From IMG/VR virus record IMGVR_UViG_3300033571_001841, positions 1 to 32,855 of that record: DNA of 32,855 bases. One strand, given 5' to 3'. This document shows positions 2,533 to 30,851 of the stretch, one piece after another. The notes under the pieces were generated by a model. The model ran no database searches. It was given only the letters and a program-made list of their open reading frames with translations, and was not told where the DNA came from. Source of the DNA: a virus. The translations under genes and the position numbers were made by a program. Position 1 is the stretch's first letter. Each line of letters opens with the position of its first letter.

Positions 2533-2982
2533 ATGCCACAGTACATAGGATTTAGCACAATTGGTGCAAACTTACCAAGAACAACTAATGCCCCCACAGG
2601 AAACGACGGGGGCGTTGGTTCTGTTAAATGGTTTGTAAATACTGGCCGAAAATACAGACTACTTGATGAACAGTTAGTCATGCAAGATTTTGTCAATGCA
2701 TTGAATATCAGACAAGGACAGAAGGTAGGTCAACCGGGATATGGAACCACATTGTGGAACTTCGTGTTTGAACCTAATACACCTGACGTTCAATTTAAAC
2801 TAGAAACTGAATTACGTAGGGTAGGTAATTTGGATCCTAGATTATTAGTTAATACGGTAAAGGCATACCCACAAGAAAACGGAATTTTGTTAGAAATGGA
2901 AGTTGCAGTAGCACCTTTCAATCAAGCTAATTTATTATCCGTCTTTCTAAGTTCTTCTACAAGCCGCGCGGCAATACAATAA
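2533..2982 (+). CDS. 25: Baseplate wedge protein gp25 (GPW/gp25 family)
   Basis: A 149-residue protein whose C-terminal two thirds match the GPW_gp25 family found in contractile tails and related injection machines. The diagnostic stretch is about residues 47-110: VMQDFVNAL, then RQGQKVGQPGYGT, then LWNFVFEPN, then an amphipathic helix ending ELRRV and a beta strand region. The family protein is part of the inner baseplate wedge, near the sheath initiator position. The length is close to that of T4 gp25 (132 residues), with a short extra N-terminus. The only ATG-type start available is 2533, because an in-frame stop lies at 2512-2514; there is no properly spaced Shine-Dalgarno, only AAGGA at 2513-2517, 15 bases away. 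gp6 follows immediately, the expected wedge partner. Confidence 0.93.
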   Translation: MPQYIGFSTIGANLPRTTNAPTGNDGGVGSVKWFVNTGRKYRLLDEQLVMQDFVNALNIRQGQKVGQPGYGTTLWNFVFEPNTPDVQFKLETELRRVGNLDPRLLVNTVKAYPQENGILLEMEVAVAPFNQANLLSVFLSSSTSRAAIQ

Positions 2983-2983
2983 C

Positions 2984-3006
2984 CCTAAAAAAAGTCGGTT
3001 TTTAGG
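2984..3006 (+). terminator. Short hairpin after gp25 (weak terminator candidate)
   Basis: CCTAAAAA (2984-2991) and TTTTTAGG (2999-3006) form a perfect 8-bp inverted repeat around a 7-base loop just after the gp25 stop. The stem is AT-rich and no T-run follows it, so termination would be weak; an RNA-processing or stability element is equally possible. Confidence 0.3.
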
Positions 3007-3009
3007 TAT

Positions 3010-3018
3010 GATAAATAC
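3010..3018 (+). promoter_or_regulatory. Late promoter motif (GATAAATAC) upstream of gp6
   Basis: GATAAATAC matches the T4-like late promoter core and lies 18 bases before the gp6 start codon, leaving room for a short leader with an AAGAGA ribosome-binding sequence at 3023-3028. Confidence 0.5.
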
Positions 3019-3035
3019 TTAAAAGAGATATACCT

Positions 3036-6000
3036 ATGGCTACAAGTTCACGACAGTCCGCATTATTCGGTGTAAACGATTGGCAAGCAATTTACCAAAC
3101 CTTTCGTGAAGCCGACTTCAGAAGCTACGATTATGAAACCCTACGTAAGAGTTTCATCGATTACTTACGTGTATACTACCCGGAAACATTCAATGATTTC
3201 ACTGAATCTAGTGAATTTATTGCCCTACTTGACGTTATAGCGTTTATGGGTCAAGGTCTTGCTTTCCGCAATGACTTGAACACACGTGAGAACTTCATTG
3301 ACACTGCTGAACGTAGAGACAGTGTTATCAAACTAGCTAATTTGGTTAGCTATACGCCTAAACGTAACTTGGCTGCTCAAGGTTATCTAAAAATTGTAAA
3401 CATACAAACTACTCAAAACATCACTGATTTGAATGGTACAAATTTAAGCAATCTTCCTATTCTATGGAATGATCCTGCAAACCCAGCTTGGATTGAGCAA
3501 TTCAACACAATTATCAATGCGGCATTAGTTGATACACAACGTATTGGTCGTCCTGGAAACATAGCAGATTTATTAGATGTTACCACTAGTGAATACACAC
3601 TAAGAATACCTAATAATGCATTGCCAATCGTCCCGTTCACTACTGTAGTCGATGGCATTGCGATGAATTTTGAACTTTGCAGTGTAACTAGTGTAGACGC
3701 AGATTACATGTACGAGATTCCTCCTGCTCCTAGCGGTCGTTTCAACATGTTATATCGCAATGATAAGCTTGGTTATGGTAGCCCAAATACAGGTTACTTC
3801 TTCTATTTTAAGCAAGGAACATTACAAAACTTTGATTTCACATTGGAACAGCAAATTGCCAATCAAGTAGTAAACATTGATATTGACGGTGTTAATAACA
3901 CAGATACATGGTTGTATCAATTAAATCAAAACAATGGTACTAGAGTATTATGGAACAAAGTAGAAAACATTTACGCTGACGCATACTTACAGACAGAAAC
4001 AAGTAATAGAACTATATTCTCTGTAAACTCACGCTTCAATGACCAAGTAAGTTATGTGTTTGGTGACGGCGTTTTCAGTCAAATCCCTGTAGGTACTTTC
4101 CGTGCTTATGTTCGTGGGGGAAATGCATTGACATACACTATTGATCCTAACGAAATGCAGGGCGTAACTGTTTCTTTTAGTTACATCAATAGAACAGGTA
4201 AAACAGAAATTTTAACGTTGGGTCTTGAGTTACAACTACCAGTATCTAACGCACAAGTACGTGAACCCCTAGCGCAAATTAAACAACGTGCGCCAACACG
4301 ATACTATACTCAAAACCGTATGGTTAATGGTGAAGATTACAACAACTTCCCATATACGTTGTATAGCTCTATTATTAAGTCAAAGGCTATCAATCGTTCA
4401 AGTATTGGTGTCAGTAAAAACTTAGATTTGTTGGATCCTACAGGAAAGTATTCAAGCTTAAACAGCTTTGCAACTGACGGTGCATTATGGCAAAATGATA
4501 CCAATGGTTTTGAGTCGTTGACAATCAACACTGTTGGTAACATTATTACGTTCTTAACAGACACTATGGGTAGTGTACTATCAAGTAACCGTGTCGTTCA
4601 GTACTACACTCAAAACTTCCCTCAGTATTCGATTAATACTGCTTCAGGTGATGGTACCATATACTGGAATGCAAGTACAGTTGATGCTAATTCATTGACT
4701 GGTTACTTCTTTAACATCACTGATGGTAGCCCATTACCAGTGCCAATTGGCACATACTCTACAAACAATGTAAAGTACATCACGCCAGGAGCATTAGTAA
4801 AATTTACTGCTCCTAGTGGATTCTACTTTGATAACACAAATCATCTTGTTTCAGGTATTGCCGGCCCAAGTAATCAAACATACTTTTGGACTACCGTGCT
4901 ATCAGTTATAGGAGATGGTTATAACAACGGTGAAGGTAACTTTGCTAATGGCACAGGCCCTGTTACATTAAATGGTTATGTACCTGAAGGTGCAATACTA
5001 ACTACTGTACTACCTGCATTTGATAATTCTTTGTCTAACGAAATTGTACAAGAGTGTATCATTCGTATGGAATTACAACAAAACTTTAGTTTAGTTTTCA
5101 ATAACTCATTGACTATTGCACAGGATCGTTGGAGTATCAAACAATACAATGACGCCAATTGGTTTGTAAATTTTGAATTTACAAATGGAAGATACAATGT
5201 AACATATCGTTCATTACGTTACTACTTTGGTAGTGTGCAAGATACACGTTTTAGTTTTGAACGTGACAAGTTGGTTTATGATCCACTTAGCGGTAAAATC
5301 TTACAAGACTTTATTAGTGTGTTAGCGACAAACACACAGCCAACGAGCAACAATCCCCTATCGAAACCAGTAACAATTAACATTGTTGGTCAGACAGTAG
5401 AGAGCGATGGCTACATTAATGATTTTGAAGTTGAAGTAGCAAGTAATGATATTAACAATCGTGGATTGATTATTAATCCTGACTTCTTCCAAACAGTAAC
5501 TGGATACACCACAGGCGGAGCCAATTCAGGTATCTATGTATTCTTTGAGTTAGTAGAAGATGCAATTAGTTTGTCTAGATATCAGATTGTACCAACAAGT
5601 GATGTAGTTCAATATCAAACTAAGACACAAATAGAAGTAGCTAAATATGAGTACCCACTAGGACAACTATTTTATGCATACGGTGAAAATGTGTTTTGGA
5701 AAACAGTTCAAGATCAAACAGTGAACACACCTTTCTACGTATTGGTTGCACAACCACAATATTCTATAAGACCAGGTCGTCAAGGATTGCAATTCCAATA
5801 TCGCCACAATAGTAACAATACTACACGTATTGATCCAGCTACCACAAACATTATTGACTTGTACGTAGTCACACAAAGCTACTATACACAATATCAAAAC
5901 TATATTAGAGATACATCTAACACAGTCGCCATGCCGCCTAAGCCAACTATTAATCAATTGAGCGAAGAATATGGTGAATTGAACAATTATAAAATGTTAA

Positions 6001-6401
6001 GTGACAGTATGGTACTGAACAGTGTTGTTTTCAAACCATTGTTTGGTCCTAAATCAGCTTCAAACTTACAAGCAACCATAAAAGTAATCAAAGCATCAAA
6101 TACAAATGCAAGTGATAGTGAAATTCGTAGTGCAGTATTGACAGCAATGAATGTATATTTTGATATCAACAATTGGAACTTTGGAGACACCTTCTACTTC
6201 AGTGAGTTAAGTGCATATTTGCATGACCAAGTAGGTGAGTACATTAGTTCCGCAGTTCTAGTACCAAATGATCCTACAATGAAGTTCGGAGATTTATATG
6301 AAATAAAATGCTCACCCTATGAGATTTTCGTCAATGCGGCAACCGCAAATGACGTATTGGTTATAGCTGCCCTAACACCAGCTGAATTACAAATTGCATA
6401 A
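3036..6401 (+). CDS. 6: Baseplate wedge protein gp6
   Basis: A 1121-residue member of the T4 gp6 baseplate wedge family. The N-terminal 120 residues carry the family pattern: a short helix region (DYETLRKSFIDYLR), an EFIALLDVIAFMGQ segment, the FRNDLNTRENFIDTAERRDSV-type helix (about residues 80-100) and a SYTPKR motif. The C-terminus has the family's dimerisation-type region with VYFDINNWNFGDTFYFSEL (about residues 1040-1060) followed by a hydrophobic YISSAVLVPND strand. gp6 forms the ring that holds the wedges of the baseplate together. T4 gp6 is 660 residues, so the middle of this protein is greatly enlarged, with a beta-rich section from about residue 420 to 900. A weak AAGAGA lies 7 bases before the ATG. 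It sits between gp25 and the giant gene and was probably co-expressed with both. Confidence 0.95.
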   Translation: MATSSRQSALFGVNDWQAIYQTFREADFRSYDYETLRKSFIDYLRVYYPETFNDFTESSEFIALLDVIAFMGQGLAFRNDLNTRENFIDTAERRDSVIKLANLVSYTPKRNLAAQGYLKIVNIQTTQNITDLNGTNLSNLPILWNDPANPAWIEQFNTIINAALVDTQRIGRPGNIADLLDVTTSEYTLRIPNNALPIVPFTTVVDGIAMNFELCSVTSVDADYMYEIPPAPSGRFNMLYRNDKLGYGSPNTGYFFYFKQGTLQNFDFTLEQQIANQVVNIDIDGVNNTDTWLYQLNQNNGTRVLWNKVENIYADAYLQTETSNRTIFSVNSRFNDQVSYVFGDGVFSQIPVGTFRAYVRGGNALTYTIDPNEMQGVTVSFSYINRTGKTEILTLGLELQLPVSNAQVREPLAQIKQRAPTRYYTQNRMVNGEDYNNFPYTLYSSIIKSKAINRSSIGVSKNLDLLDPTGKYSSLNSFATDGALWQNDTNGFESLTINTVGNIITFLTDTMGSVLSSNRVVQYYTQNFPQYSINTASGDGTIYWNASTVDANSLTGYFFNITDGSPLPVPIGTYSTNNVKYITPGALVKFTAPSGFYFDNTNHLVSGIAGPSNQTYFWTTVLSVIGDGYNNGEGNFANGTGPVTLNGYVPEGAILTTVLPAFDNSLSNEIVQECIIRMELQQNFSLVFNNSLTIAQDRWSIKQYNDANWFVNFEFTNGRYNVTYRSLRYYFGSVQDTRFSFERDKLVYDPLSGKILQDFISVLATNTQPTSNNPLSKPVTINIVGQTVESDGYINDFEVEVASNDINNRGLIINPDFFQTVTGYTTGGANSGIYVFFELVEDAISLSRYQIVPTSDVVQYQTKTQIEVAKYEYPLGQLFYAYGENVFWKTVQDQTVNTPFYVLVAQPQYSIRPGRQGLQFQYRHNSNNTTRIDPATTNIIDLYVVTQSYYTQYQNYIRDTSNTVAMPPKPTINQLSEEYGELNNYKMLSDSMVLNSVVFKPLFGPKSASNLQATIKVIKASNTNASDSEIRSAVLTAMNVYFDINNWNFGDTFYFSELSAYLHDQVGEYISSAVLVPNDPTMKFGDLYEIKCSPYEIFVNAATANDVLVIAALTPAELQIA

Positions 6402-6411
6402 GTAATATATT

Positions 6412-9400
6412 ATGGCATCAAGAATTAGAACACTAAATTTTCTACCAGACGTTTTCCAAACACCTACGAACGCACAGTTTTTAGCCGCAACATTAGACCA
6501 AATTGTTGCACAACCAGAGACAAAAAGAATCGAAGGGTACATTGGTACTAAGTTTGGTTATGGTATAAACGCTAAAGATTACTATGTAACAGAACCAACA
6601 AAAACTCGTAGAGATTATCAATTAGATCCAGGTGTTGTCTTTACTAAAACTAACGAATCTGTAGCAAAAGATTTTATCAGCTATCCTGGTATCATTGATG
6701 CATTGAAACTTGAAGGTGGCGTTACTGACGATAATAATCGTTTGTTCAACAGCCAATTCTATTCATGGGATAGCTTTACTAACCTAGACAAGGTTATTAA
6801 TTATAACCAGTACTATTGGATTCCAGAAGGTCCTGCAAGGGTAGTTGTTTCCAACGAAACAGTTTACTACGCCAACGACTATGCAGTGTATGACCTACCT
6901 AATGGATATAATATTATACCGTTGACAAGTGCTGACAGTTTAGGTTCTACGAATCCTACATTAACATTGTTGCGCGGTGGTACTTATACTTTTGCTGTTA
7001 ATCAAGATTCACAATTTTGGATTCAAGGTGAACCAGGCGTTACTGGATTTAGTAACACACAACCTAACGTACAAACTCGTGATGTTTTAGGTGTTAACAA
7101 TAACGGAGCTAGTCAAGGCATTGTTACATTTACTGTACCTCCAAAAAATGCACAAGACGAATATAACTTCCCTGGTAACAACTTAGTAAGTTTAGTATCA
7201 AACCTCCCATTCGCACAAGTTAATGGTTATAGAATTTCTGATTTGACAAATGGAATCGATGGAGTAACATCACTTGATGGACTAACCATCATGTTCTATA
7301 ATACTGGATTGCCAAATGAAGTTGGCTATGTATCTAACTTCTTTGATTACACACCGTATGACGAAAACAATGATCTAACTTCATTGCAGACAATAAGTAT
7401 CACTTCTACTAACAGCTCCACAGACGCTATCACATGTAATAGCACTGCAAATTTAATAGTAGGAAATGCAATAGTATTCAATGGCACTCCTTTTGGTGGC
7501 ATATCTCAGTATTCAACAACATTACCTAACACAATTTATTATGTAGAGTCAATTATTAACTCTACTCAGTTTACAATTTCTACAACACCTAATGGATCTA
7601 TCTATCCATTAACTACAGACACCGGATCTATGACTGGGGTAATCAATCAAGGTCAATATGAACAAGGATACTATACTAATGTTAGTGAACATTTTTACAC
7701 AGTTCAACTCATCGGTGATCCTTCTGATCCTGTAATTAGATTAGTAGAAGCTTCTGCAATTCCAGTAACTCAAAAAATTACAGCATCATTTGGTGTTCAA
7801 TATGGCGCTAGAAGTTTTTACAGAACTGCCAGTGGTGCGATTCTAATTATTCCATATATCAGCGCACCATTAGATACACTATATTATCAAGATAGTAGCT
7901 CTCCAACTAAAGTAGGGGCAATTAGATTAGTAGAAAGCAATATCACTAACACATTAAATGTTGATACTGATATTATAGGTCAATCTCAATTCACTGCTAC
8001 CAATGGTATTGTATTTACTAATGGATTGAAAGTTGTTTTCCAAGGTGATGTTATTCCTAGTAACTATTTGACTGGTGAATACTATGTAGAAGGTGTAGGC
8101 ACTTCAATTGAACTATTACCTGTAGAGGATTTTATTGCGCCTGAAGGTTTTACTGCCACCACATATGTGCCGTGGGACGTTTTAGGTTGGGACTCTACTG
8201 ATTGGGAAGGCAATTCCTATATCCCAGTTACTCCTGATTACATTACTATTGCACGTAATAGTATAGATAAAAATGCATGGTCTCGTAGCAATCGTTGGTT
8301 CCATATTGATGTTATCAATGCTACTGCAACCTATAATAACAATCCAAACTTAGTTACATTATATGCAACTTCGGAATATAAGGCAAAGCGTCCTATTATT
8401 GAATTCTACCCTAACATCAAGATGTTTAATTCAGGTTCTGAGGGTAAAGCACCAGTTGACTATATTGACACTAGAACTACAGATGCATTCACATATGTTG
8501 CAGGTCAACAAAATTACTATCCAGACGTAGAAGTATACACTGCTTATACAGCTACTATAACTAGCACCAATTATCTTGCTGATAGAGTGATTCAAACAGG
8601 AAGTAACTCTACTGGTGTTTTTACTGTTGCTAGTGGCTACAATACTACAGGGTTTAATGTAAATGACTTAATTGTTTTTGACGATATAACACCGGGATCA
8701 GGTATTACTACCGGCGGATCATATTATGTTGCTCAAGTTGTTTCAAGCACACAGTTTAAAATTTCTGCAACAAAAGGCGGTGCTATAGTAATACCAGCAG
8801 TTTCTGTAACTGGTCCATATAGTTTTACATGGTCACCACTTAGTACAACAATTACGATAGCCAATGATGACATTTTTGGTAAGTTGAACGCACCAGGTGC
8901 GTTCACTGTAGGTCAATATGTTACTGATTCTACTAATGCTCTACCACGCAACACACAAATCAGCGCAATTTCAGGTACAACAACACTGACATTGACACTA
9001 GATTGGGACGAGGGTGGAAATTATTTTACACAACAAACTAATGCGTCTATCATTGGTACTGATACAACAAATGACAATTATGCATTGTTTGACGGGTCAA
9101 GAATTGTCTTTACACAAGACACTGATATTAACGTAAAGAATAAAATTTACATATCAAGATTCTCTACTATTTCAGGATCATCCGTACCAGTCATTACTCT
9201 AACTGAAGCTAGTGACGGTGAAGTACTCGCAGATCAACAAACTGTTGCTCTACGTGGATATTTCAATCAAGGAAAAGAATTTTGGTACGATGGTATCGAT
9301 TGGATAGAAGCTCAACAAAAGACAAATTTGAATCAATCACCATTATTTGATGTATTTGATTCTAACAACATTAGTTTTGGTAATTCTGAAATATATGTAG

Positions 9401-12400
9401 GCACATCGTTTACTGGATGTAAATTATTTTCTTATGGAATTGGATCAGGACTAGACGATACAGTGTTAGGTTTCCCGGTAAGATATAGTTCCATAGATAA
9501 CGTAGGAGACCTAAGCTTTGACGTTTCTTTAAACTTAGATACCTTTGATTATGTTAATGGAACTGAACCAGTAACTCAAAAAGTAAACACTGGATATGTG
9601 TTCCAGTATAACAATCGTATAGAATATAATAGACAGCTTGGATGGCAGACTGCGGTAAGCCCAAGTATACAGTATCAAATATTTGAATTTAATTATGATC
9701 CGCTAGTACCCACAACTGAATTTGTTTGTGATATTGCTAAGTCAAGTTCAGATTCAACAAACTGGCCTACTATTGAAGTGTATGTTAATAATGTCACAGT
9801 TCCTCATGATGAATATACTGTGGTAGTTGGCCCGGACACAACTACAGTAACTTTAACTACAGATCCAATAATAGAAACAGTCATTCAAATTTTAGTATTG
9901 AGTGACCAAGTAAGTCAAACAGCGTATTATTCTATACCTGTTAACTTAAACAACAACCCATTGAATGCAGATATCACTGTTGCAAACTTAGGTGATATTC
10001 GTGGCCAGTATCAAAGTATATTTTACAATAACCCAAATACAACCGGTGAAGTATTTGGTCCAAACAACTACCGTGATCTAGGTAATATGGTACCGTGGGG
10101 CGATAGGATTATTCAAAATAGTGCTAGCATGGTTTTACCAGGAGCATTCTTACGTAAACAAGAACATAACCTGTTCAATGCATTAATGTTTAACAGCAGA
10201 GAATATGTCAAGTTTAAAAACCTATTGGCATATACTGTGCAAAACAGTGACTATACGCAACGTTATGATCCAGCTACATTATTAGATGATGCATTGGATC
10301 AAATCACTGCATCAAAGAACGACAGTCAACCATTCTTTTGGTCTGATATGCTACCAAACAAAGCGGCGTATGTTTCTAATACCTACTCATTTGCAAACAG
10401 TTTGGATGTAAGTATCTATCCATTGACAAGAGTATATGATTATACTACTGCAAATTACTACGGGGTATTAGTATACTTGACACGCACAGCACTAGGCGTA
10501 ACAACAACACAGCAATTAATTAAAGGACAGGACTATACCATTAGCACTACTGCACCTTCGTTAACTGTTTCATTAGACTTGCTACCGGGTGACGTAATTA
10601 CAATTAAAGAGTATAATCAAACTTATGGCTCTTACGTACCAAACACACCAACTAAGTTAGGGTTGTATCCTGCTTATACACCTGAAGTAATACTAGATAG
10701 TAATTACAGCACTCCTACTTATTTCATTCGTGGTCACGATGGATCATACACAAAACTATACGGTGAATATGATGCATTGACTGGATTACTAACTGATTTT
10801 AGAGATCAAACTAGTTTGGAATTCGAACTACGTGTATACAACAACTTAAAGATTAGTTCTGTTATACCTATCAAGGAATATGAAGTTGTTCCTGGTTTCT
10901 TTAGAGAAATTGACTATACTTACGAACAATGGTTGTCTATTTATAGCTCTGGTTTCTTAAACTGGGTAGGTCAAAATCGTTTGAATTATAAGATCCAGTT
11001 CTATAACAGCAATGATAACTATTCTTACAACTACTATCAAAGCGGAAATGCAATCAACAAGGCACCTATATCACAGGGCTATTGGAGAGGTATATATCAG
11101 TATTTCTATGATACTACAACACCGAACACTACACCATGGGAAATGTTAGGATTTACTGAGATGCCATCATGGTGGACAGGTCGATATGGTCCTGCACCGT
11201 ATACAAGTGATAACTTAGTTTTGTGGACTGACTTATCAGAAGGTATAGATTGGAACAACGGAGATCCAGTTGTAATTCCACAAGCCGTTCGTGATGGCTT
11301 ATTAGAAATTATACCAGTTGATTCTGCTGGAAACTTGCTACCACCGATAGATTCTGTAGTAGGTGCATACAATCAAAGATTATTCCAACGTGATTGGAAA
11401 GTTGGTGATGGTGCACCAGTTGAATTTAGCTACCGTCGTTCTAGTTCATATCCATTTGATCTAATGAGAATAATGGCGTTGACTAAGCCAGCACAATTCT
11501 TCAATTTAGGAGTTGATGTAGACCATTACAAATACAATGCAGAATTTAATCAATACTTGGTAAACAACCGTAGTCACTTGAGAATGAGTGATATCGATGT
11601 GTATGGATCAGGCACACCAGTTACTAGTTATGTAAACTGGGTTGTTGACTATGAAAAACAAGTCGGCATAAACGCCACAACAAACATTACAGAAATGTTT
11701 AACAACATGGATGTTCGTTTAGTTTATAGAGTAGCCGGCTTCACTGACAAATCACTATTGAAGTTTTATGTTGAAAAAGGTACACCAAACAGTAGAAATG
11801 CTAGTTTGTTGATACCTGATGAAAGCTACAGCGTATTGTTGTATGATAACCAACCATTCAATAGAATTGTTTATTCAGGTGTTATCGTTCAAATTAACAG
11901 TACAGGTGGATATAACATATTTGGTAATTCACAAACTAATGCTTACTTCAAAACTTTAAAACCAAAATACGCAGGAAAATATGATACAATAGAAGTTGAA
12001 GGGTTGTCTGTTAAAGTAACACCTGAACACTATTCAACTGAACAACTTATACCTTATAATACTACATTATACACAGCACAAGAAGTTTCGCAATTCTTAG
12101 CTGATTACGGTGCATACTTAATTAGTTTAGGTATGAAGTTTGAAGATACTGAAAGCGGTCTAGAAATTAACTGGGCTCAGATGATTGCTGAGTTCTTGTA
12201 TTGGGCACAAACCGGATGGGCACCTGGCAGTATCGTTACATTGAATCCATCTGCTAAGAAATTGACTATTGACAAAGATAGCAATATTGTGCAACCATTG
12301 ACAATACAACAGTCTAACTTTGTATTGAATCAAAACTTATACCCAATACAAACAAATGATCTTTCTATTGTTCGTGAGGGAACTGCATTCAGCGCAACAG

Positions 12401-15400
12401 CATTGAATGATGGAGATACTATTTCGTATGGACAGTTCAATTTGAGCAACTTTGAACATGGTATTGTTTTTGATAACGTTACCTTGTTTGGGGATATTAT
12501 CTATAACTTGACAACTGGATTACGTCAGAATCGTATTGCATTGCGTGGTACAAAGAGTGCTGATTGGAATGGTACAGTTAACGCAGCCGGCTTTATCTAT
12601 AATCAAGATAATATCAAAGAATGGAACCGTACAGTTAAGTATACCAAAGGTGAAATTGTTAAGTACAAGAACAAGTACTGGATCGCTACTAAAATTATCC
12701 AAGCAAGCGAAATATTCAAAGAAGCTGATTGGAAACGAACAGATTACGATGAGGTTCAAAAAGGTCTGTTACCTAACTCAAGTACACGTAGTTATGAAAG
12801 TTCATTGTACTACGACATTGACAGGGCTAACCTAGAGAATGATGCAGACTTATTGAGTTTCAGTTTGATTGGATATAGACCACGTGACTACATGGCTCTT
12901 GCAGATTTGACTGATATTACTCAAGTCAACGTGTACAAGAACATGATTAAAAACAAAGGTACATTGAATGCAGCCTCTGCATTCAGAGGTGCAAACTTGC
13001 CACAAGGCGGGATTGATTATGAAATCTTTGAAAACTGGGCTATTAAAGCAGGTGAGTTTGGCGGTGTACTAAACAACAACTTTGTTGAATTTAGAGTTAA
13101 TGAAAAGAACATGACAGGTAATCCTGCAATCGTAGGATTGACTGACGGAGTATACAATGTAGGCGTACAACAAGAAGTACCATTGTATTCATTGTTTAAC
13201 TACGGAAGACCTATCACAAATGTTGACGTATTGCCCACAAATGAAGTCGATACTCCAAATACAATTTATCCAGATGCAGGTTATGTAAATTACAACGATG
13301 TAAAAATGTCTGCATTCTTCTATTCTCAATTGGGAGTAGCAGTTGACAAGAACGGTTCTATCGTACCTATTGAAGATTTCTTTGTTCGTGATTATGTATG
13401 GCTAGCTAATTACCTAGAGCGTTGGGAAGTATATACTCCTGTTGCTATGGGTCAAGTAGTATCAGCAAGAAATAACTTGAATGAAACAGTAACAATTACG
13501 TTCAACAAACCACATAACCTAAGACAATATCAACCGTTTGCAATTGTAAACTTTGATTTAGCTATCGATGGTTACTACCTAGCAACTATTGTTATTGACC
13601 AATACAGAGTGTTAGTAAACAGAACACTAGACACAAGCATCAAGACTATTACAGGTCAAGGCGTTGCAATGAAGTTTAGTTCTCAACGTGTTGCTACACC
13701 TGCTGAAATAGCAGACTTGCCACTAACTGACGCTGAGTTTAGAAAAAATACAGTATGGGTAGACACTAATGGTTCTGGTTCTTGGGGAGTTTATCGTAAA
13801 GGTATTAACTACACATTAACTAGCCAAGTAACAAAAACTTCTAGCCAATCGTTAGGTAGTGCGGTTGCGGTTGGTGATCAATTGGGTTACTTAATAAGTG
13901 ACGCTGACCTAGGTCAAGTGTATCGTTACACCTACAACGATCTATCACAATCATATGAATTAGTTCAGACTATTACCGGCAGTGCATCTTTTGGTAGCAC
14001 TATTAGCTATGCCGGTGACGTTTATGCAATTGCACAAACTACGGGTGGTTCTAGAACTGTTAAACTATATCAACTACAGAACACAACTACTAGTGACGAT
14101 TTGGTATTGATACAAACTATACCATACGAAACAGGTGCAACTACTTGGGGAACATCTATTGCAATGTCTGGAAATCTAGATTGGATCTATATATCTGACA
14201 TTGACAACAACACGGTTCACGTATACCAACGTTCTAATATATCAACGACCGCTGGCAATTTTGAATCTACAGAAACATACGTTATCAATGAAATAGGTAC
14301 TACCGATTTTACTTTGATTGGTGCAACATCTAACGATGTTGGTGTGAAGTTTATTGCAACTGGTGTAGGAACAGGCACTGGTGTAGCTACTAAGATTACA
14401 TACAATGTGGTAACTATTATTGATGGTGATGCATTGGGTTTAACGAACCCTGGTGACAGATTTGGTTACTCAATTTCTACGGACTATGACGGTGATGAAA
14501 TTGTCATAGGAGCTCCGTACAAAGATTACGGTGCTTATGATAAATGGGGCCAGTCATATGTATTTCAAAAGTTGTATCAGAATATAGAAATTCAGTACAA
14601 CACAATTGCACCTACATCACAAACATTGCAGTTAGCATGGACACCTGATACAACACAATTTACAGTTACTGCAACTAATGCTACTACAGATAGAATTACA
14701 TTGACTGTAGCAATGGATCCAATAGCAGATTTAGATAAACCAATCATATTTTCGGGTTCAGGATTTGGGGGAACAGAAATTGTCACTGAAAAAGTTTATT
14801 ATGTTTCTACTATTTCAGGATCTAATATTACTATCAAGCAAACCAGAGAAAGCACAACTGATGTTGCACTAAGCACGGCTGCCGGATTAACCAACACATA
14901 TGCTTATCTACAAGACGATACTCTATTTGTATCTAAGAATGGTACATTAGTTCAGGATAACAATTATGCTGTAATCAATGATACATTGATTTACACTAAC
15001 TCTTTAGATGCCGGAGATATTTTAAATGTAAGTGGTCATTTCATTACTATAGTTCAGACTCTTACTACTGAACAGACTCCTCAGACCGGAGCACAATTTG
15101 GCACTAGTGTTGCTACCAATATACATGCTAGTGAAATACTAGTAGGTGCTCCGTATCAATTGAATACACAAGTTTCTGAAGGTGTTGTTTATCGTTACAC
15201 TGATCCAGGAGTAGTTTATGGAATATACACTGGTACTACAGATTGTAATGTCACTACTACTAGAAAATTACTAATCAATGGATTCTTAACTTACATACCT
15301 GCAGGCGACGCAAGTGATGCCGCTGATGCTATTAATTCTGCACAGATTACTAATGTGGCTGCAACTAACATTGATGGTAAATTGGCTATCTTCTTAATAG

Positions 15401-18400
15401 ATAGTGATCTTGCACCTGCTTTTGAGAAATTATTCATAGGTGTAACTGACGATCAAACACTAACTGAATTGGGTATTCAAACATATACGTTGACACAAGA
15501 AATTTTGTGTCCACACACTGAAGGCCCCACACAATTTGGTACAGTAATAAAATTCAACGAATATGGTAGCTTTGTTGCAAGTGCTCCGGTAGGAACACGA
15601 TTCAGTGCAACTACATTTGATTTCATTGATGATGAAAATCAAGACAATGATACATTGTTTGACAACAATGCAACTAATTGGATAGACGAATCTCCTAACT
15701 TTGGTGCTGTTTACATGTTTGATTACATTTCACAGTACAATGAAAGTTTAGCTAATATTGGTAAGTTTGTTTATGCACAAAGCGTCAACTCACCTAATTT
15801 AGTGTATACTCCGTTTAATACGTATGACCAAGAAACTGACGTAACATCAAGTAATCAACCTCGTTACGGTACTGCATTAGACTTTAATAACTACGGTGTC
15901 ATTGTAGGTACTCCTGGTGATGTTGGCGCTACTACTGGTACTGAGTATGCAGGGTCTGCGACAGTGTACAACAACAGTTTGCGTGTCAAAGATTGGTCAC
16001 TATACAGATATTCTGCTCCTATAGTAGATATCAATAAACTGTTCAACATACAATTGTTTAGTGCCGAAACTAATCAAACACTAATCAATTTGGATTACAT
16101 TGATCCATTGCAAGGAAAAATATTAGGTGCGGTTAGAGAAAACATTGACATAGTATCAAATGTTGATCCGGCATCATATAATAATACAGCAACTGTTAAT
16201 GGTAATCTAGTATGGGGTGCAGATTATGTTGGTAAGATTTGGTTGAACACTAAAAACATGCGTTATGTGAACTATCATCAAAACGATGATGTGTCATATA
16301 ACAGTCAATATTGGGCAACATTGTTCCCAGGTAGTGATGTTGCAGTTTATAGTTGGGTTGCAAGTAACGTATTGCCTAGTAGCTATCAAGGACCAGGAAT
16401 TCCTCTAAGCATCAACTCATACTCAATACAATATGTAATAAATGAATCAGGTGCTCTGACTCCTGTGTATTATTTCTGGGCTAGAAACACCAATATCATT
16501 AATGATAGTAAAACATTGTCTGACAGTATCATTGCGTCATACATTGAAAATCCTAAAGCATCTGGTATTAGTTATTTCAGTCCTATACTACCTAGCGTTT
16601 ATGGATTATACAATTCAAATGAATACATCAATGCAAATGATAGCGTATTGCACATTGGTTTTGCAACCGGAACAAACAATGATGTTTCACACGAACAATT
16701 CAATTTGATACGTGCTGGATTTGCAAGTGATTTCTTACCTGGAGTTCCATTGTTGTCTAACGAAGCTCCTGACAGTTTATATGATAGATTACTAGACAGC
16801 TTGTGCGGTGTAGATGAAACTGGTGCAATTGTTCCTAACCCATATTTACCAAAAGCAGTTCAAACTGGTATATTGGCTAGACCTCGTCAAAGCTTCTTCT
16901 TTAATCGCTATACTGCGTTAAAGAATTACCTACAGTATGCAAACAGTATATTGGCTCAATTTCCAATCACTGAGATTCGTCAATCATCATTCTTAAATTC
17001 GAATGGTATTTTTTACGACACTGCTGACTATTGGGAATATATTAATTGGTGGTCTACTGGCTATGACAACAATACTAAGTCTGCACTACAAGTTTTAAAT
17101 TATGCAGATTTATCTACACTGTCTGTAGTAACAGGTACGATTGTATCAGTTACATCAAATAGTAACGGTAGAACAGAAACGTATGTATATGAATCCAGTG
17201 GTAACTGGAGACGTATTGGCCTAGAAAATGGTACTATCAGATTCAAAACATCATTATGGGATTATGAATCAGTTCGTTTGGGATTTGGTGATAATTTCTT
17301 TGACACTGATCTTTATGATATTTACCCAAGCGAAGAAACACGTAAAATTGTCCGTGCATTGAACGAACAAATTTACACTGATGACCTTTTAGTATACAGA
17401 AACCGTAGTTTAATTTTGTTGTTTGAATACATTCAAAGTGAAACTACTGAAAATCAAAACTACTTGCCATGGTTGAATAAAACATCATTCATTGATGTTG
17501 CTCATACTATTCGTGAACTACGTCCTATTGAAGTATTCCAAAGTGATAACCAAGATTTCTTATCCGGTTACATGAATGAAATTAAACCATACCACGTAGT
17601 TATTAAAGAATTCTTATTCAAATATACAGGTGAAGAAGTTTATGGTGGTAATATCACTGACTTTGACTTACCTTCAAAATATAGTGCGGCTCAAGCGCAG
17701 TTCATAACACCTCAGTTAGTATACGCTAATTCTAATGGTGTAAATCAGTTCACACCTGATGATCCTATATGGGAAGAGCAAGAATATTCACAATGGTTTG
17801 AGAATCATGGATTATCAATAACTGGTGAAAATGAAGTGCAGATGACCACATTAGCTTCATACCTTTCATTGAACACGAACTCATTTGCAGTAGATAATGC
17901 ACAGGGTTTCCCTATCAATGGTATACTAACAATTGGTACAGAGCAAATAGGATATTCATCTGTTGATAGAGCATTGAATGTTTTATCTGGTTTGACTCGA
18001 GGTGTAAACGGAACTACAATAGCACAGCATATTCCAGGTCAATTGATCTATATGAATTTACCGGCTGTTCTATTGTTAGATGGTGGTAGAGGATATGTAG
18101 AACCGCCTAAAGTAACAGCGTACATAGATACTACATTGTATCCTGCTCCAACTGTACCTGCTGTACTGACTGCTGTTATGAATTTGGATAGTGTATTAAG
18201 AGTTGACGTAGTTAATCCTGGCCAAGGGTATGCAGTATTGCCTAAGATCATAATTGATCCAGCAATAACAGTACCGTTTACCAGTGCAGATGTAAACATC
18301 TTCTCTAACACAATTCAAGTATATGCTCCATTATTGCAAACAGGTGATCTTGTTCAATACAAGGTAGGAACTGACAGTACTGCTATTGGCGGGCTAGAAA

Positions 18401-21400
18401 ATAATCAATGGTATTATATTAATGTTTTAGAAACAGTACCATCAGTTGTTATTGGATTTTACGATAACTACGCTGATTGTATAGATAATCATGATAGATT
18501 AAGATTGTTTGATGCAGGTACAGGTTCAAATCACACGATAAATCAAGGTGCAAAAGCAAGCGCAATTTCTACGTCTGCCCCGGTTAGAGAGAATGACATT
18601 GTTTTGAGATTCGACAGAACCACATACGATTCTCAAGTTTTAGAATGGTTAGCAGGAAGATACTATGGTGCTTTCTATGCTGGTACTTACTCAAATAGTG
18701 AGTCAGTATCCAGTTCATCTATATCGCTACAAAGCACACAACCTCCAATCGCAGATATATTGGCAAGTGCTCAAGGTGTTGCGTTTGAAATCACTGACCT
18801 TAGAAATGAACGTGTAGTAAATTACAGTTCATTCATACGTTATGTTGATAGCACATACGCCGCAAATGAAGTCATAAGACTAGAACTACAAGACGATGGT
18901 TCAGGTAATCCAAACGCATCAGGTGGTACTATTGGTTTCTATGTTGGAATGCCGATCAAGTTCACAGGTGATGTTGGATCTAGTGGTATTATTACTAATC
19001 AAGTTTACTACGTAAACAGCATCATCAACCAAACTGATTTTACTATATCTGAAAGCAGTACAGGTAGTCCAATCAAAGTATTGTCTAACTGGACAGTAGG
19101 TCCTGCAGGATTACAATGTTACGTTGGTGAAGTAACTGATACTGCGGTTATTACGGTTAACTATCCGGGCATTTTAAATGTAACTGCAACTCAATCAACT
19201 GTAAACAAATTGACAGTGCCATTGAATGTTACTGGTTCAGGTGGTACTGAAGGATTCTATATCAATCTACCAATCTTCTTTACAGGCACAGATTCTAATT
19301 TACCACAAAACGGTGTGTTTGGTGGTATTGTAGAAAACGAAGTATACTATGTTACAACAGTGGTCGACAACCAAACGTTCACCATGTCTGAGGAGAAAGA
19401 CCCACAAACATTTAATGTAACTGCAACGGTTGCTTCTACTGATACTGTTGTAATAGATGGTGACACCTCAAAGTTAACAGTAAATGAACCTATAATCTTC
19501 AACACAATGGTTGTTGCAGGAACAGAAACATCTTCATTTGGTGGATTAGTTTCAGGAACTACATATTACGTATCGTCTATTGTAAGCCCAAGTTCATTCA
19601 CTATTTCTACATCAATTAACGGGGCAATAGTTGCATTGTCTAATGTATCGGCTGCATCTAACACCTCTGCTCTATGCACAAGTCAGAAAAATACCTTAGC
19701 ATTAACAACTACAACAGGTAATAACATGGTTGTCAACGTTAGCTTGCCAGTAAGCCCAGGACAAGTTAATGGTCAGTTGTTCACCCTATATGAAACTTCA
19801 GGGCAATATCCGAGTCTAGACGGCACTGATGGTAATTTGATTACTAGGGGATTAGCCGCATTGATAGGTCAAAGAACTATTGATAGTGTAGTAGTTGATG
19901 TTAACGCAATTGTATTAACTAACTTTAATCCAGGCGATACAGTAGCATTGGGATTGACAAACATTTACATCAACATGCCAATTGAAATTTCAAATGACTT
20001 GTTCTATAACAACGTACTAGTTCCTGGAACTACATATTACGTAGTAGAAAAAGATACAATTGAAATTGAAGTCACAAACACATCATCTTCAACTAATGAG
20101 TTGACTTGCGATACTACTGAGCTATTATTCGCTGATATGCCAATCATATTCTCGGGCGCTGGTATTGGTGGTGCTGAAATTGATGTTGAATATTGGGTTA
20201 AGGAAGTTGTAAGTGATACTAGATTCACTATTACTAATACACCAGGTGGTTTAGAACTAACCTTATCTACTGCTAGTGGATTGATGACAGGTACTGGATT
20301 ACCTTATATTAAGGTTGCTACCAATATTGGAGATCCTGCAATATTCCCAGGTAACACACAGCAAAGTGCTTCTATCAGCGCCGCAAATCCAGCTGTAATT
20401 ACAGTCAGTGGAGCACCTTCAGACGGTGACACTGTTATTTTCAGAAATGGTGAAGCTCCTGCAGGTATGGCGTTGAACACAACCTACTATGTACGTAACG
20501 CAACCAACACTACATTTAACATTTCGTTAACATCTACAGGCTCGCTAATAAACACTTCGGCTGGTGTAGCTAAAACGTCAACAATGGTTATAACTGAGAC
20601 AACTACAATAGATCAAACTCCACTAACAGTTCCTCAATTTGATGTCAGCTACATCTTAGGTGGCTATAGAGTATTGATTACCAATCAAGGATCAGGATAT
20701 GCAGTTGATAATACAATTGTGATCCCGGGCACTGATATGGGAGGAACCACTACATTAAACGACTTGACGTTAACTGTAAACACAATTGATAGTGAAGGTG
20801 AAATTTTAAGTGTTATTTGTTCAGGTACAGTGCCAGGTGACAGTAATCAATATTACTTGAAAGTTATTTCTTCTACAGAATTTGAATTGTATGCAAATCA
20901 GTTGATGACAGTTCCTGTTAGTGGATTGAACTTACCATATGTAGGTATTACTGAAACTACTGTTACAGCAACACAATCATCGACAGATATTATTACAGTG
21001 TCAAGTACATCAGGATTTAGTGTAAATGATGCAGTAGTCTTTACTGGAAGTAGTTCAGGTGGAATGGTTCAAGGTCAAACATATTACATATTGGACAATA
21101 TTAATTTTACTGCAACTACATTGCAAGTTAGTGAAACCCCAAATGGTTCTGTATTTCAGTTAACAACTGCGGTCTCTCAAAATTATACAATGGCTAAGTT
21201 TGGTTCAGTTGCGTTGTTACCGGAACCATTCATATTCAATCAGAGCATTGTTAAGTATAACAACCGTGTTTATGTTTGTGTTGTATCAAATAACGACCAA
21301 GAGTTTGTATTTGGTAAGTGGGAACTATTAACTAGTGGTGATCGTAGACTAAATGCAATGGATCGTGTAATGGGTTATTATCAGCCTACCGTAAATATGC

Positions 21401-24400
21401 CTGGCAAAGACTTGTCACAGTTGTTTGAAGGGGTAACATATCCAAATAGCACATACTTAGGTAATCCATTCGCACCGGATCAACAATATGCAGTAGATAC
21501 TATTTTACAAGATCAAGCGTTCTATCCTACTGATGTAGATATACATGCTGTAGTTTGGGACGGCACTAGATATATTGCTGCCGCGGATATGTCTACATAT
21601 TCAAGTGTGTTGTCTAGTTTAACTACTGATGAATGGGCTATACAAAAACTAGCAAACACTCCGATCAATACAACGGATATGATTTATGCTGGTGGTTATT
21701 ATTTGTTAACTACAAATAACTCTGCAACACCTATCTTCAGAAGTGAAAATGGCATTACATGGACAACAAACGGTTACTTTACTCCATGGGGTTCAGTACC
21801 ATATGACACTACAACATATGACTTCACCGCACTAAGCATATCTTCATTGAATCTAAATTCAGTAGGATATAGAAATGGAATATGGGTATCAGTAGGAGAT
21901 GGCGTAATATCTAGTGATGATACTTACATTTGGAGACAACGTTTTACATTTGGTAATCCTCTACTAACTAATATACTATACGGTGTAAATGGTATTGATA
22001 TTACTGCATTCCAAGGCTTCATTGCAGTGGGTAAAGGTCAACAGATGGATTACTCTAGTGGCATTGGAGTTACAATCAATGTAAGCATTATATTAACTAG
22101 CACTGACGGAATTACATGGAATCAATTAGCACCAGTAAGTTCTAAAGGATTGTACGGAATAACACACAACGGTACAAACGCATTAGCAGTCGGTGAAGAT
22201 GGTGTAATCTATATTTCTAATAACGGTGGCAATTGGTTAGGCGTAAATGAAGTAACTGTTATTAGCGTCAACGCATCATCAAACTACCTAAACGTAACTA
22301 GCACAACTGGATTCGCAGTAAACGATCAAGTAGTATTCTCTACCTCGTTTAACGTGTTTACTGCAGGAACAACATACTATGTTAAGACTATTGTTTCTGG
22401 CACTCAATTACAATTGAGCACTACATTAGGAGGCTCAGTCGTCACATTAACTGCGGCAGATCCTTCTACAACCACATACATGTCAGCTATTGCTACACAT
22501 GATTTAGTAGACGTTCTTTATGCTAATGGTGTTTATGTTGCTGTGGGCGATAACGGTTACGTTATAACGTCAATGAATGGTTATGATTGGGCACAAAGAA
22601 CGACAGGTACATCAGAAAACTTGAATGGCATAGCATACAATGCAGATGATGATATATGGATTGCAGTTGGTGAGAACAATACAATTCTAGTAAGTTATAA
22701 TGACGGTACTGATTGGACTAGTTCTTCTGTCTTTGCCCCTCAAACAACAACATATGATGTTCAGGGCGCAGAATTTACATATGGTTACGGTCCAGAAGAA
22801 CTGGTGCCAGGTGTTGTAACTGACAACATTACTATGACTGTTGCTACACGTCCTGGTACTAATTGGGACGAAACGATTTATCAACATGTTGGTTATAATG
22901 TTGTAAGTATTGAATTAACTCCTACATCAGGTACACAAACTTTATACAGCTTTGACGTTGGCAACTTGTACAACATACAAAATCCAGCACAAATAGCAGT
23001 TTATGAAATCAATGGTTCTACTGGTTTAGGTACTGCTATTTACAACACAGTAGACTACACAATAAATTGGGTAGATTTTTCTATTACGTTGAACAGTCCT
23101 CTACCATTCACACCAGTGACAAATAAGCTACGTGTTGATATCTATGAAGTAGGTAACGGAAATCAATTAGTCAAGGCTAGCACCAAGACTGATCCAATTC
23201 GTATGCACGAAAATACTGGTTGGAATGAAATTTATGTAAACTGTAACTATTCTGGACAAATCTATCAAGGTTCAGGTGTTATAAGACCTGATACTAATCC
23301 AGTTGACGTAGAAGCCACCGAAACAGATTCAACCTCTAACACTATATTGTGTGCAAGTGTTAAAGATTTCTTCTTGAACGAACCCATCACATTCCAAGGT
23401 GCAGTGTTTGGTGGTTTAGCAGAAGATACAACGTATTACGTTAAAACTATCAGTTATGTAACTAACAGAATCACAGTGTCTACGACTATCAATGCAGGCA
23501 CCGGCACAGCAGGACCTACATTGGCATTGACTGATGCTACCGGTTCTATGAATATTATTATTAAAGTTGGTTATGGTGAAGTATGGACTACTCCAATCAT
23601 TTATCACAATGGTAACAAACTATTATTGGGCACCACTAGCACTGTTACTAGAACAAAAGCTAGCAACAATGCAGTGACAACCAATACGACCGGTGGAATG
23701 ATTGTAGGCGAACGAATTGTGTTTAGTGATACTATGTTTGGTCCAGTATTGGCTCCGCAGACAACATACTATGTCAAAACTATTATAGATGCAAATGAAT
23801 TTACAGTATCTGCGACATTAGGTGGACCTGTCTTAGCATTAACTGATGCAACAGGCGGTGCAGAATTCATTACTAATGATTATGCATTTGGTATTGCGGA
23901 GAATGGAATAACTGCATCTATCATATTTGCTACAGGTGACTATGATGATAATGTAGACTACATAACTTACACATTGTTTGGTGAAACAACACCTACACAA
24001 TATGGTTATACAATACCTGAAACTCAGTTGATTACTGCTGATGGTACAGTAGGTCCGTTCAGCTTAGATAATTATGTTTCTGATAACAACCCAACTAATG
24101 CGGTTGTAGAACTTAATGGTCTTCGTTTGATTAATACCACTGATTATACTATTGATGACAACACCAATGAAATTACATTCACTAGTGCACCAACATTAGG
24201 TGATGTAATAGCAGTGACTACATACAACCAAACAGATCGCCAATACTTGAATACACAATATGGTATCACCGGTATTACTGTTTCAGACATTGTAGACATT
24301 AACAATACTATCACACCTTACTCCGCAACTACTAACTGTACTAATACTACTTCAGGTACAAATCGTATTACATGTGTATCAACCGGCGGATTCGCTGTTG

Positions 24401-28943: not shown

Positions 28944-29249
28944 ATGGACACAAAAACTTTAATTAGCGAAGCTAAAGCCCGATTTAGCCACAACGCAGCC
29001 AAATCATATCTAAAGGAAAAATATGAAACTCGGTTGATAGTTGCCGAGCAAGGCGGGCTTTGGAGAGCAAATCTCCAAACAATCAATTTTTTAAACAATT
29101 CTCAATCAGATACTGTCATTCTTGTTGATAGTTTTGAGAATCCGGTACAAGTAAACCGTGCAGAATTACTAGCCAAACTCAATGAAACATATGAATCTGT
29201 TATGGGCGAATGGCTAACCGAATGGGCAGAACTAGAGAAGAAACGATGA
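28944..29249 (+). CDS. Conserved phage protein of unknown function, 101 residues
   Basis: A 101-residue, mixed alpha/beta protein with wording I recognise from marine T4-like phages: TLISEAKARFSHNAAKSYLK, then EQGGLWRA, then FLNN, then VILVDSFENPVQVNRAELL and a C-terminal EWLTEWAELEKKR helix. No function is known to me. AGGAG six bases before the ATG is the best ribosome-binding sequence in the window, which fits a first gene in an operon. The stop overlaps the next start (ATGA). It stands between fibre genes and glycosyltransferase-like genes, so a role in assembly or in accompanying those enzymes is possible but unproven. Confidence 0.85.
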   Translation: MDTKTLISEAKARFSHNAAKSYLKEKYETRLIVAEQGGLWRANLQTINFLNNSQSDTVILVDSFENPVQVNRAELLAKLNETYESVMGEWLTEWAELEKKR

Positions 29250-30055
29250 GTAGAGGAGCACTACTCTTTGCCTTCAACTCACCCAAATACAATTACTACG
29301 CAATGGCGGAGTATACCGCAAAGAGAATCAATCATTTTTTGGGCATGCCTGTAACCATAGTTACAGATAAATCCAGTATACCTAATAATCCATCTTACAA
29401 GTTTGACAATACTATTGTTGTTGAACCCGATAAGAATAACATTCGTGATTATATGGTTTGGATTAACAAGGGTAGATACCAAGCGTATGAACTTAGTCCA
29501 TACGATGAAACCCTATTACTAGATACAGACTACATGGTTAACAGTGATAGTTTGTTGAAAACATTTGATATATGTGAAGATTTTTGCTGTCACGATACAA
29601 CGTCATTCTTGATGCATCCCAAAGCACCTCAAGAAGTATTGAGCGCATATAGCTTCAAAACACTGTGGGCTACAGTAATTACATTTAAAAAGACACCTCG
29701 AGCAAAACAAATCTTTGAATGTCTAGAAATGGTTCAGAAAAACTATGAACACTATGCTAACATTCATAGTTTTATTGCTGGCGTATATCGCAATGATTAT
29801 GCATTGACACTGGCATTACGCATTGCTAATGGACACCTTATAGATCATAGTGATATTATCCCGTGGAATTTAGTTCACGTTGGTAAGAACACCTCAGTAT
29901 ATTCAGATACTGACAATGAATTCAACACAGAATATACAGTGATGTTTGATAACTGGCAACGAGGTAAGATTCGCAAAGAATATATTAGTCTCAAAGGTAC
30001 AGATTTTCATGTGATGAACAAAGAAAACTTTATGGAGTTAATTAAAAATGGATAA
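29246..30055 (+). CDS. Glycosyltransferase-like protein (GT-A type, DTD motif)
   Basis: I choose the ATG at 29246 (269 residues), which overlaps the preceding TGA as ATGA and has AGAGAAG upstream; the in-frame ATG at 29210 would lie deep inside the preceding gene. The layout is that of GT-A glycosyltransferases such as the GT8-type group: an N-terminal beta-alpha unit (ALLFAFNSPKYN), a strand VTIVTDKSS, then SPYDETLLLDTDYMVNSD with DTD at residues 93-95, the usual metal/nucleotide-sugar site. Near the C-terminus is GTDFHVMNKENF. The protein is paralogous to the next one (both have SPY-x-x-T before the acidic motif). The donor sugar and the acceptor are unknown; the family assignment is by motif only. 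Confidence 0.75.
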   Translation: MSRGALLFAFNSPKYNYYAMAEYTAKRINHFLGMPVTIVTDKSSIPNNPSYKFDNTIVVEPDKNNIRDYMVWINKGRYQAYELSPYDETLLLDTDYMVNSDSLLKTFDICEDFCCHDTTSFLMHPKAPQEVLSAYSFKTLWATVITFKKTPRAKQIFECLEMVQKNYEHYANIHSFIAGVYRNDYALTLALRIANGHLIDHSDIIPWNLVHVGKNTSVYSDTDNEFNTEYTVMFDNWQRGKIRKEYISLKGTDFHVMNKENFMELIKNG

Positions 30056-30851
30056 AGGGTTCGTTATTATTTCACAAGATGGTGGAACTTTAGACACATA
30101 TCAAAAATGTGCAGAAGCATTAGCAAAGAGCATAAAACGCACAATGCCAGATGCAAAAGTGTCTATCATCACTAACAACAAAATTAAAAATACATCGCTG
30201 TATGACAAAATCATTCCATTGCCGTACGGTGACCAAGCACCTAAAAGCTATTGGAAACTAAACAACGACTGGCAAGTATATGATGCTAGTCCATATGAAT
30301 ACACTATAAAATTAGAAGCAGATATCTATCTTCCTCGTTCGATAGATCATTGGTGGGATGGATTGAAGCATCGTGATTTGGTAATATCTACAAAGATAAG
30401 AGATTTCAAACAGGACATTAGCCCATCACGTGTATATCGTAGATTCATTGATGACAACAAATTACCTGATATGTATAACGCAATCACATACTTTAAGAAG
30501 TCTGATACTGCTAAACGGTTTTTTGAAATGGTTCGTTATGTATTTGAAAATTGGTCTGACATTAGAGCTACTTTGAAAGGTAGTCCATATGAAGAAGCAA
30601 CCACTGATTGGGTATATTCATATGTAGCACATGTCATGGGTGTTGAAAATTGCACGTTGCCCGGATTTGACGAAATGAGTATGGTACATATGAAGCGACT
30701 TATCAACAATCTCCCTACTGAAGATTGGACTGATGCCTTAGTGTATGAGATACTTCCACATACATTGCGTATCAATTCTTGTCCACAGCTTTACCCTTTC
30801 CACTATCATATAAAGACTTTTTCTAATAAAATACTACAAGCCTATGACTGA
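30048..30851 (+). CDS. Glycosyltransferase-like paralogue with EAD instead of DxD
   Basis: 267 residues, overlapping the previous gene by 8 bases, with TGGAGT about 10 bases before the start. It follows the same plan as its neighbour: GFVIISQDGG opening, VSIITNNK strand, then ASPYEYTIKLEADIYLPRS with E90-A91-D92 where the neighbour has D93-T94-D95. A middle block with DWVYSYVAHVMG and a C-terminal HYHIKTFSNK complete it. The altered acidic motif may still bind a metal, may indicate a different donor, or may mean a non-catalytic partner subunit. The end overlaps the next start by 8 bases. Confidence 0.75.
   Translation: MDKGFVIISQDGGTLDTYQKCAEALAKSIKRTMPDAKVSIITNNKIKNTSLYDKIIPLPYGDQAPKSYWKLNNDWQVYDASPYEYTIKLEADIYLPRSIDHWWDGLKHRDLVISTKIRDFKQDISPSRVYRRFIDDNKLPDMYNAITYFKKSDTAKRFFEMVRYVFENWSDIRATLKGSPYEEATTDWVYSYVAHVMGVENCTLPGFDEMSMVHMKRLINNLPTEDWTDALVYEILPHTLRINSCPQLYPFHYHIKTFSNKILQAYD

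Follow-up and report, generated by a model that had tools for sequence, protein, structure and literature searches.

Integrin alpha subunits carry a propeller of seven four-stranded blades of the FG-GAP type, and they hold an inserted domain, alpha-I, at a site between blades 2 and 3. Among phages, the Ig-like domains of structural proteins are promiscuous: they are small, and they come and go in-frame. The subject of this study recalls both. It is a giant gene in a 32.9-kb virus record (IMG/VR record IMGVR_UViG_3300033571_001841, positions 1 to 32,855; this whole stretch of 32,855 nucleotides is called the window), whose 6494-aa product is predicted to contain a seven-bladed FG-GAP propeller with three inserts in its blades, one of them a cassette of about 48 residues termed TTDFT.

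The propeller resembles that of the integrins (for example alpha-L, 5e6s) in its seven four-stranded FG-GAP-type blades and in the place at which the ring opens. Unlike the integrin propeller, it is embedded in the middle of a protein, it lacks the strict calcium motif (D-x-[DN]-x-[DNS]-G-x-x-D, found in 0 of 61 aligned sequences), and its inserts each part the third strand of a blade (3, 4 or 5) from the fourth, instead of occupying the alpha-I site. The phrog_10938 proteins of phages RaK2, 121Q and PA5oct share the framework on both sides of the propeller and the same place after a gp6-like gene, but are 3323-3857 aa long as against 6494, and have no FG-GAP propeller at the site. Other viral FG-GAP propellers, from uncultured Caudovirales, Megaviridae, Atu_ph07 (annotated "Hemagglutinin protein") and a virion protein of cyanophage S-TIM5, are similar in predicted structure (Foldseek E 4e-26 to 1e-7), and the fold is thus not new in viruses; unlike the one in the window, these are partly separate proteins. 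The best viral match, A0A6J5L8L4, an uncharacterised phage protein of greater length, may be of this kind as well. The TTDFT cassette differs from the phage Ig-like domains in having no match in Pfam, PHROGs or PDB, and in sitting in loops of other domains at many sites. FG-GAP propellers and promiscuous domains of phages are both known kinds of element, here nested in one giant baseplate-associated protein; searches of the open-licence PMC literature brought up no paper that describes such a propeller in the baseplate protein of a phage.

A predicted closed ring of seven blades

A first-pass annotation had counted seven FG-GAP blade motifs, the first three 138-156 bases apart and the later ones separated by 315, 636, 438 and 330 bases, and had read them as a propeller split by foreign inserts. 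The seven motifs are indeed present, starting at positions 13840, 13981, 14137, 14452, 15088, 15526 and 15856, with measured spacings of 141, 156, 315, 636, 438 and 330 bases. An AlphaFold model built with 61 sequences (pLDDT 83.5, pTM 0.85) confirmed the propeller: its strands group into seven blades, and residues 2468-3187 are predicted to form a closed seven-bladed ring. The best solved match is integrin alpha-L (5e6s_C, Z 33.8, 2.5 A), with 334 residues aligned over model residues 30-756, and integrin alpha propellers are the best fold matches (Z 30-34) among the top Foldseek chains, a listing in which the absence of a family carries no meaning. The alignment to the integrin takes in about 334 of some 727 residues, which leaves loops and inserts to make up the rest. 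The inserts are not integral to the fold, as the alignment of the ring with integrin alpha propellers continues past every one of them and relatives lacking each one exist. Because the integrin alignments start at model residue 30, the strand at residues 2468-2474 would belong to blade 7 and close the ring as in integrins.

Profile searches agree with the model. Pfam FG-GAP_2 (PF14312) matches the propeller region at 34.9 bits (cut-off 23, E 1.8e-8) and 58 of the 61 relatives at E <=0.01. When the blades were searched singly, blade 4 scored 28 bits and blade 5 15 bits, under the 23-bit cut-off, and blades 1-3, 6 and 7, cut apart, gave no FG-GAP_2 match. A home-built blade profile, which is not independent since it was built mainly from the window's own family, scored seven stretches in the window; on ten propeller-less segments (L187, L182, L188, L189, L198, L181, L037, L035, L038 and L193) it scored 0-2 stretches, none above 3.6 bits. 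By entropy over the 61 sequences, the most conserved parts of the region are blade 6 with its acidic loop and the two flanks; that this loop holds a calcium site is an idea only. Chance or an assembly artefact was ruled out, as an identical region occurs on a separate 139-kb contig (L007) and relatives come from many samples.

Three inserts in blades 3, 4 and 5

Three of the four enlarged gaps had been ascribed to inserts, and each of the three proved to contain one. The blades concerned are 3, 4 and 5, and in each the insert separates the third strand from the fourth (Table 1). The fourth enlarged gap, of 330 bases, is native blade-6 sequence, consisting of the conserved acidic loop and a linker, and contains no insert. 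The strand 3-4 hairpins of consecutive blades lie on one face of the disc in standard blade geometry, and because all three inserts are on such hairpins they would share one face.

The identities first given to the inserts need some revision. The blade-4 insert, described as a copy of a repeated module, does contain the module, but is composite, with the module nested in a further beta unit. The blade-5 insert is present as claimed; its flagellin-hook label is weak, with Flagellin_IN (PF07196) scoring 17.1 bits against a cut-off of 22.7 and matching this insert in five of 26 relatives at E <=0.1 (best 3.4e-4). The suggestion that the inserts are binding domains found no support, none of the three in the window reaching a Pfam cut-off.

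Table 1. Features of the window (positions in nucleotides; residues of the giant protein in brackets)
Feature	Position	Strand	Evidence
gp6-like baseplate wedge gene, immediately 5' of giant gene	3036..6401	+	phrog_10646 E 9e-260, phrog_219 E 4.7e-22
Giant virion protein, 6494 aa	6412..25896	+	framework related to phrog_10938
Framework flank 5' of propeller, conserved (2436-2467)	13717..13812	+	mean entropy 0.80 in 61 sequences; present in 61/61
N-terminal strand (2468-2474), predicted to close ring as outer strand of blade 7	13813..13833	+	model strand 33-39
Blade 1 (2481-2522)	13852..13977	+	model strands, blade profile
Blade 2 (2527-2571)	13990..14124	+	model strands, blade profile
Blade 3 (2583-2671), split between strands 3 and 4	14158..14424	+	model strands, blade profile
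TTDFT cassette (2610-2662) within blade 3	14239..14397	+	flanks map to 2609/2663
Blade 4 (2687-2884), split between strands 3 and 4	14470..15063	+	FG-GAP_2 28 bits; model
Blade-4 insert (~2727-2869), small beta unit enclosing module	14590..15018	+	in 61/61 relatives
Module copy inside blade-4 insert (2753-2825)	14668..14886	+	63.2 bits to window module profile
Blade 5 (2899-3032), split between strands 3 and 4	15106..15507	+	FG-GAP_2 15 bits, under cut-off; model
Blade-5 insert (~2932-3025), faintly Flagellin_IN-like	15205..15486	+	17.1 bits, cut-off 22.7
Blade 6 (3046-3124), most conserved blade	15547..15783	+	mean entropy 0.87-0.94
Acidic loop of blade 6 (3062-3097; model 627-662), strongly conserved, low model confidence	15595..15702	+	pLDDT ~41-48 at model 631-656; entropy 0.87
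Blade 7, three inner strands (3155-3187)	15874..15972	+	model strands, blade profile
Framework flank 3' of propeller, conserved (3204-3258)	16021..16185	+	entropy 0.78; recovered in seven cultured relatives
Second propeller (~5038-5440), predicted seven-bladed type, unrelated repeat family	21523..22731	+	model pTM 0.76; virginiamycin B lyase 2z2p_A Z 29.1, 271 residues, 2.4 A
Module copy within second propeller (5286-5349)	22267..22458	+	61.6 bits

Gain, loss and exchange of the inserts among relatives

Two sets of relatives were drawn from IMG/VR: loci L001-L098, found by propeller queries (best 80 of 373), and loci L179-L258, found by a PA5oct-first query (best 80 of 526). The alignment holds 61 of 70 distinct regions and the window, with near-copies and the identical L007 omitted. 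Within it, the TTDFT cassette at the propeller site is absent in 10 sequences, single in 49 and double in 2, and its distribution requires at least six gains or losses on the tree, five of them forced by well-supported branches. Among close relatives, gain and loss are seen for this insert only, those of blades 4 and 5 being present in 61/61; as these loci were chosen with a propeller query, that count is silent on relatives that have lost the propeller. TTDFT units also occur elsewhere in the propeller: inside the blade-4 insert in L058 and L089, in blade 7 in L075, L078 and L079, and, as further TTDFT-like units, inside the blade-5 insert in L028.

More distant loci carry other combinations at the same site. 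Divergent propellers were found in L228 and L236 (205 and 202 bits); in L228, read by eye, the beta unit of blade 4 lacks the module, a similar insert sits in blade 5, and blade 3 has a different beta unit that replaces TTDFT (the blade profile scores eight stretches here, two of them read by eye as one blade 6). In L234 (six stretches by profile, seven blades by eye) it is blades 2 and 3 that carry inserts, one of which is a CBM_5_12 carbohydrate-binding module (27.0 bits, cut-off 26.2), while blades 4 and 5 have none. L248 has seven blades by profile, spaced 50-87 residues, and no large inserts. Aligned to the window with MAFFT, L234 and L248 fall out of register over the N-terminal half; their blades were placed by the profile and by reading the sequence. 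With TTDFT missing in 10 of 61 sequences, the module in L228, the blade-4 and blade-5 inserts in L234 and all three inserts in L248, every insert is, by these comparisons, dispensable in some lineage. FG-GAP propellers at the same site were also observed in L237, L240, L257, L243 and L255 (four stretches each by profile in L243, L255 and L237), with inter-blade gaps of up to about 860 residues; these much larger gaps make larger inserts probable there.

The propeller at a variable site of the framework

The giant gene is a single open frame without internal stop. Its framework matches phrog_10938 in the first half and again past residue 3400 (successive parts E 3.2e-84, 1.7e-115, 1.1e-21 and 2.7e-27), and by blastp the protein matches homologues of 3323-4555 aa in seven of seven cultured jumbo phages (PA5oct, Atu_ph07, SCTP-2, 121Q, RaK2, Vibrio 2.275 and Phosso). 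The distance between the conserved anchors on either side of the propeller site is 963 aa in the window, 330 in PA5oct, 218 in 121Q, 217 in RaK2 and 278 in Vibrio 2.275; longer cultured cases are SCTP-2 (519 aa), Atu_ph07 (1544) and Phosso (1537). In the IMG/VR loci it ranges from 211 to 2732 aa (67 measurable of 80). FG-GAP_2 was found at the site in four of ten segments tested with Pfam (L228, L234, L237 and L225), and the propeller sequence, searched against 50,697 records of cultured phages, gave no propeller relative, the TTDFT part alone being matched. The SCTP-2 segment at the site looks LamG-like by eye only, Pfam returning no family. Four loci (L193, L196, L197 and L202) have 2447-2732 aa between the anchors, L193 without FG-GAP blade signal.

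The site varies in what it holds, and the propeller changes faster than most of its surroundings: blocks 2471-2990 are 46-55% identical among 13 loci, as against 55-79% in most framework blocks.

TTDFT, the repeated module and a second propeller

Outside the propeller site, the TTDFT cassette occupies 25 further positions in the giant proteins of relatives, at which the window has the empty form. This count derives from the 173 units in long frames that scored 25 bits or more. Of these, 74 lie at the propeller site and 57 at clean empty sites elsewhere, and the 42 with ambiguous flanks were dropped; the clean positions number 27, and two of them represent the doubling of the propeller-site unit, leaving 25. 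At least 497 IMG/VR stretches encode the unit. Copying of TTDFT within a genome is unsupported: at the DNA level, copies that share a locus resemble each other no more than copies from different loci do (median 0.60 vs 0.61), and recent intragenomic copying is therefore not seen.

The module of the blade-4 insert, about 70 residues long, has 14 copies above 40 bits in 6412-25896 (for example 7402-7626 and 23647-23856). Its assignment to a known family was rejected, as matches are faint and scattered and the propeller copy matched nothing; P22 coat and endosialidase chains gave E 0.02-0.7. The E1_FCCH match (25.3 bits, cut-off 29.5) belongs to another repeat unit, a weaker one, near residue 6059. 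One module copy lies within a second propeller of an unrelated repeat family, whose block is 50-51% identical in the 13 loci; this propeller is absent, with a clean empty site, in three of 52 distinct relatives (L021, L032 and L054) and about 80 aa shorter in ten.

These nested arrangements may be taken further. It is conceivable, and we offer it as a tentative reading, that the protein is a nested insertion platform (framework, propeller, beta unit, module and, in L058 and L089, TTDFT), and that its small parts, TTDFT foremost, behave as mobile cassettes that enter, in-frame, the loops of unrelated domains in many phages, where they would rebuild the host-contact surface piece by piece.

Host contact or architecture as candidate roles

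We consider it fairly probable that the FG-GAP propeller is one domain inserted at a fixed variable site of a baseplate-associated protein of a jumbo myophage, with extra domains on one face, blade 6 docking and the rest contacting the host. The ring would close beside the point at which it opens, and for that reason could be spliced in without disturbing the framework. Blade 6 and the acidic loop, conserved like the framework, are probably the parts by which the disc docks to the baseplate. This would leave the inserts and the faster-changing blades facing outward, where they probably contact a host-surface sugar or protein at adsorption, and exchange of the inserts between phages would retune that contact. 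Receptor reading by the propeller, as first proposed, is plausible, and the propeller with its exchangeable loop domains may be a modular part that touches the host cell.

The baseplate location would follow from the neighbourhood of the gene. T4 gp7 is encoded directly after gp6, and the giant gene likewise lies directly after the gp6-like gene in the window, as do its homologues in PA5oct, 121Q and RaK2 as annotated there. In sequence, two framework profiles gave no solved T4 protein at E <=10. The PA5oct homologue carries the annotation ESI-MS/MS, that is, it was detected in virions. A passage of the account of phage CBB gives a structural protein, CBB_236, with a number adjacent to that of the gp6 gene and 21 unique peptides (PMC5259590); from its position we infer that it is the homologue of the giant protein.

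Several observations weigh against this explanation. The two framework profiles found nothing below E 0.06 among solved structures, so that the baseplate location rests on gene order and the annotation of relatives; the PHROGs class of the phrog family is head and packaging. None of the inserts in the window scored above the Pfam cut-off for a binding family. The propeller, at 47-78% identity to the window over the 61 sequences, is far from hypervariable, and similar variability is seen in other blocks of the giant protein (5071-5460, 50-51%; 4551-4680, 52%), so relaxed constraint would explain its rate equally well.

The propeller and inserts may instead be architectural, serving as spacers or glue that enlarge the baseplate or brace its neighbours, the inserts being passengers tolerated in permissive loops. 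TTDFT looks indiscriminate, many of its 25 further sites lying outside any propeller; the similarity in DNA of its copies within and between loci fits this view too, as do the fixation of the blade-4 and blade-5 inserts and the fact that cultured relatives manage without a propeller. Nonetheless, the large propeller is retained intact in all 61 relatives while evolving faster than the framework, and lineages that keep it swap in other domains, one of them carbohydrate-binding; we regard an architectural role as possible, if doubtful. A strict integrin-like adhesion head, dependent on calcium and binding a protein ligand on its upper face, would accord with the top structural matches. Integrins dominate these, however, because the solved seven-bladed FG-GAP structures come from them; in Pfam the match is to FG-GAP_2, inserts on strand 3-4 hairpins lie on the face opposite the integrin ligand face, and with the calcium motif missing in 61/61 this highly improbable reading was rejected. 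Many phage propellers are enzymes, and the second propeller fold resembles virginiamycin B lyase, but a lyase- or glycosidase-like enzyme trimming a host surface polymer is very unlikely here, as no enzyme family scored above cut-off for the FG-GAP propeller and fold similarity alone does not show activity.

If the inserted propeller does contact the host, it would offer a modular way of approaching host choice in jumbo phages that are widespread but uncultured. Failing that, TTDFT with its scattered positions still raises the question of how a 48-residue domain spreads in-frame to many places. A tail protein can double in length, from about 3300 aa to 6494, by taking in whole domains, one nested in another, with its framework kept, natural relatives marking each step, and an integrin-type propeller with loop domains amounts to a naturally tested display scaffold.

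Other features of the window

A CBM5/12-like stretch at about 12607-12760 (residues ~2066-2117), below the Pfam cut-off and not in the aligned cultured relatives, is likely another domain insert in the giant protein. Downstream (3') of the giant gene, near tail genes, the stretch 29210-32853 contains, read by eye, glycosyltransferase-like and radical-SAM-type genes.

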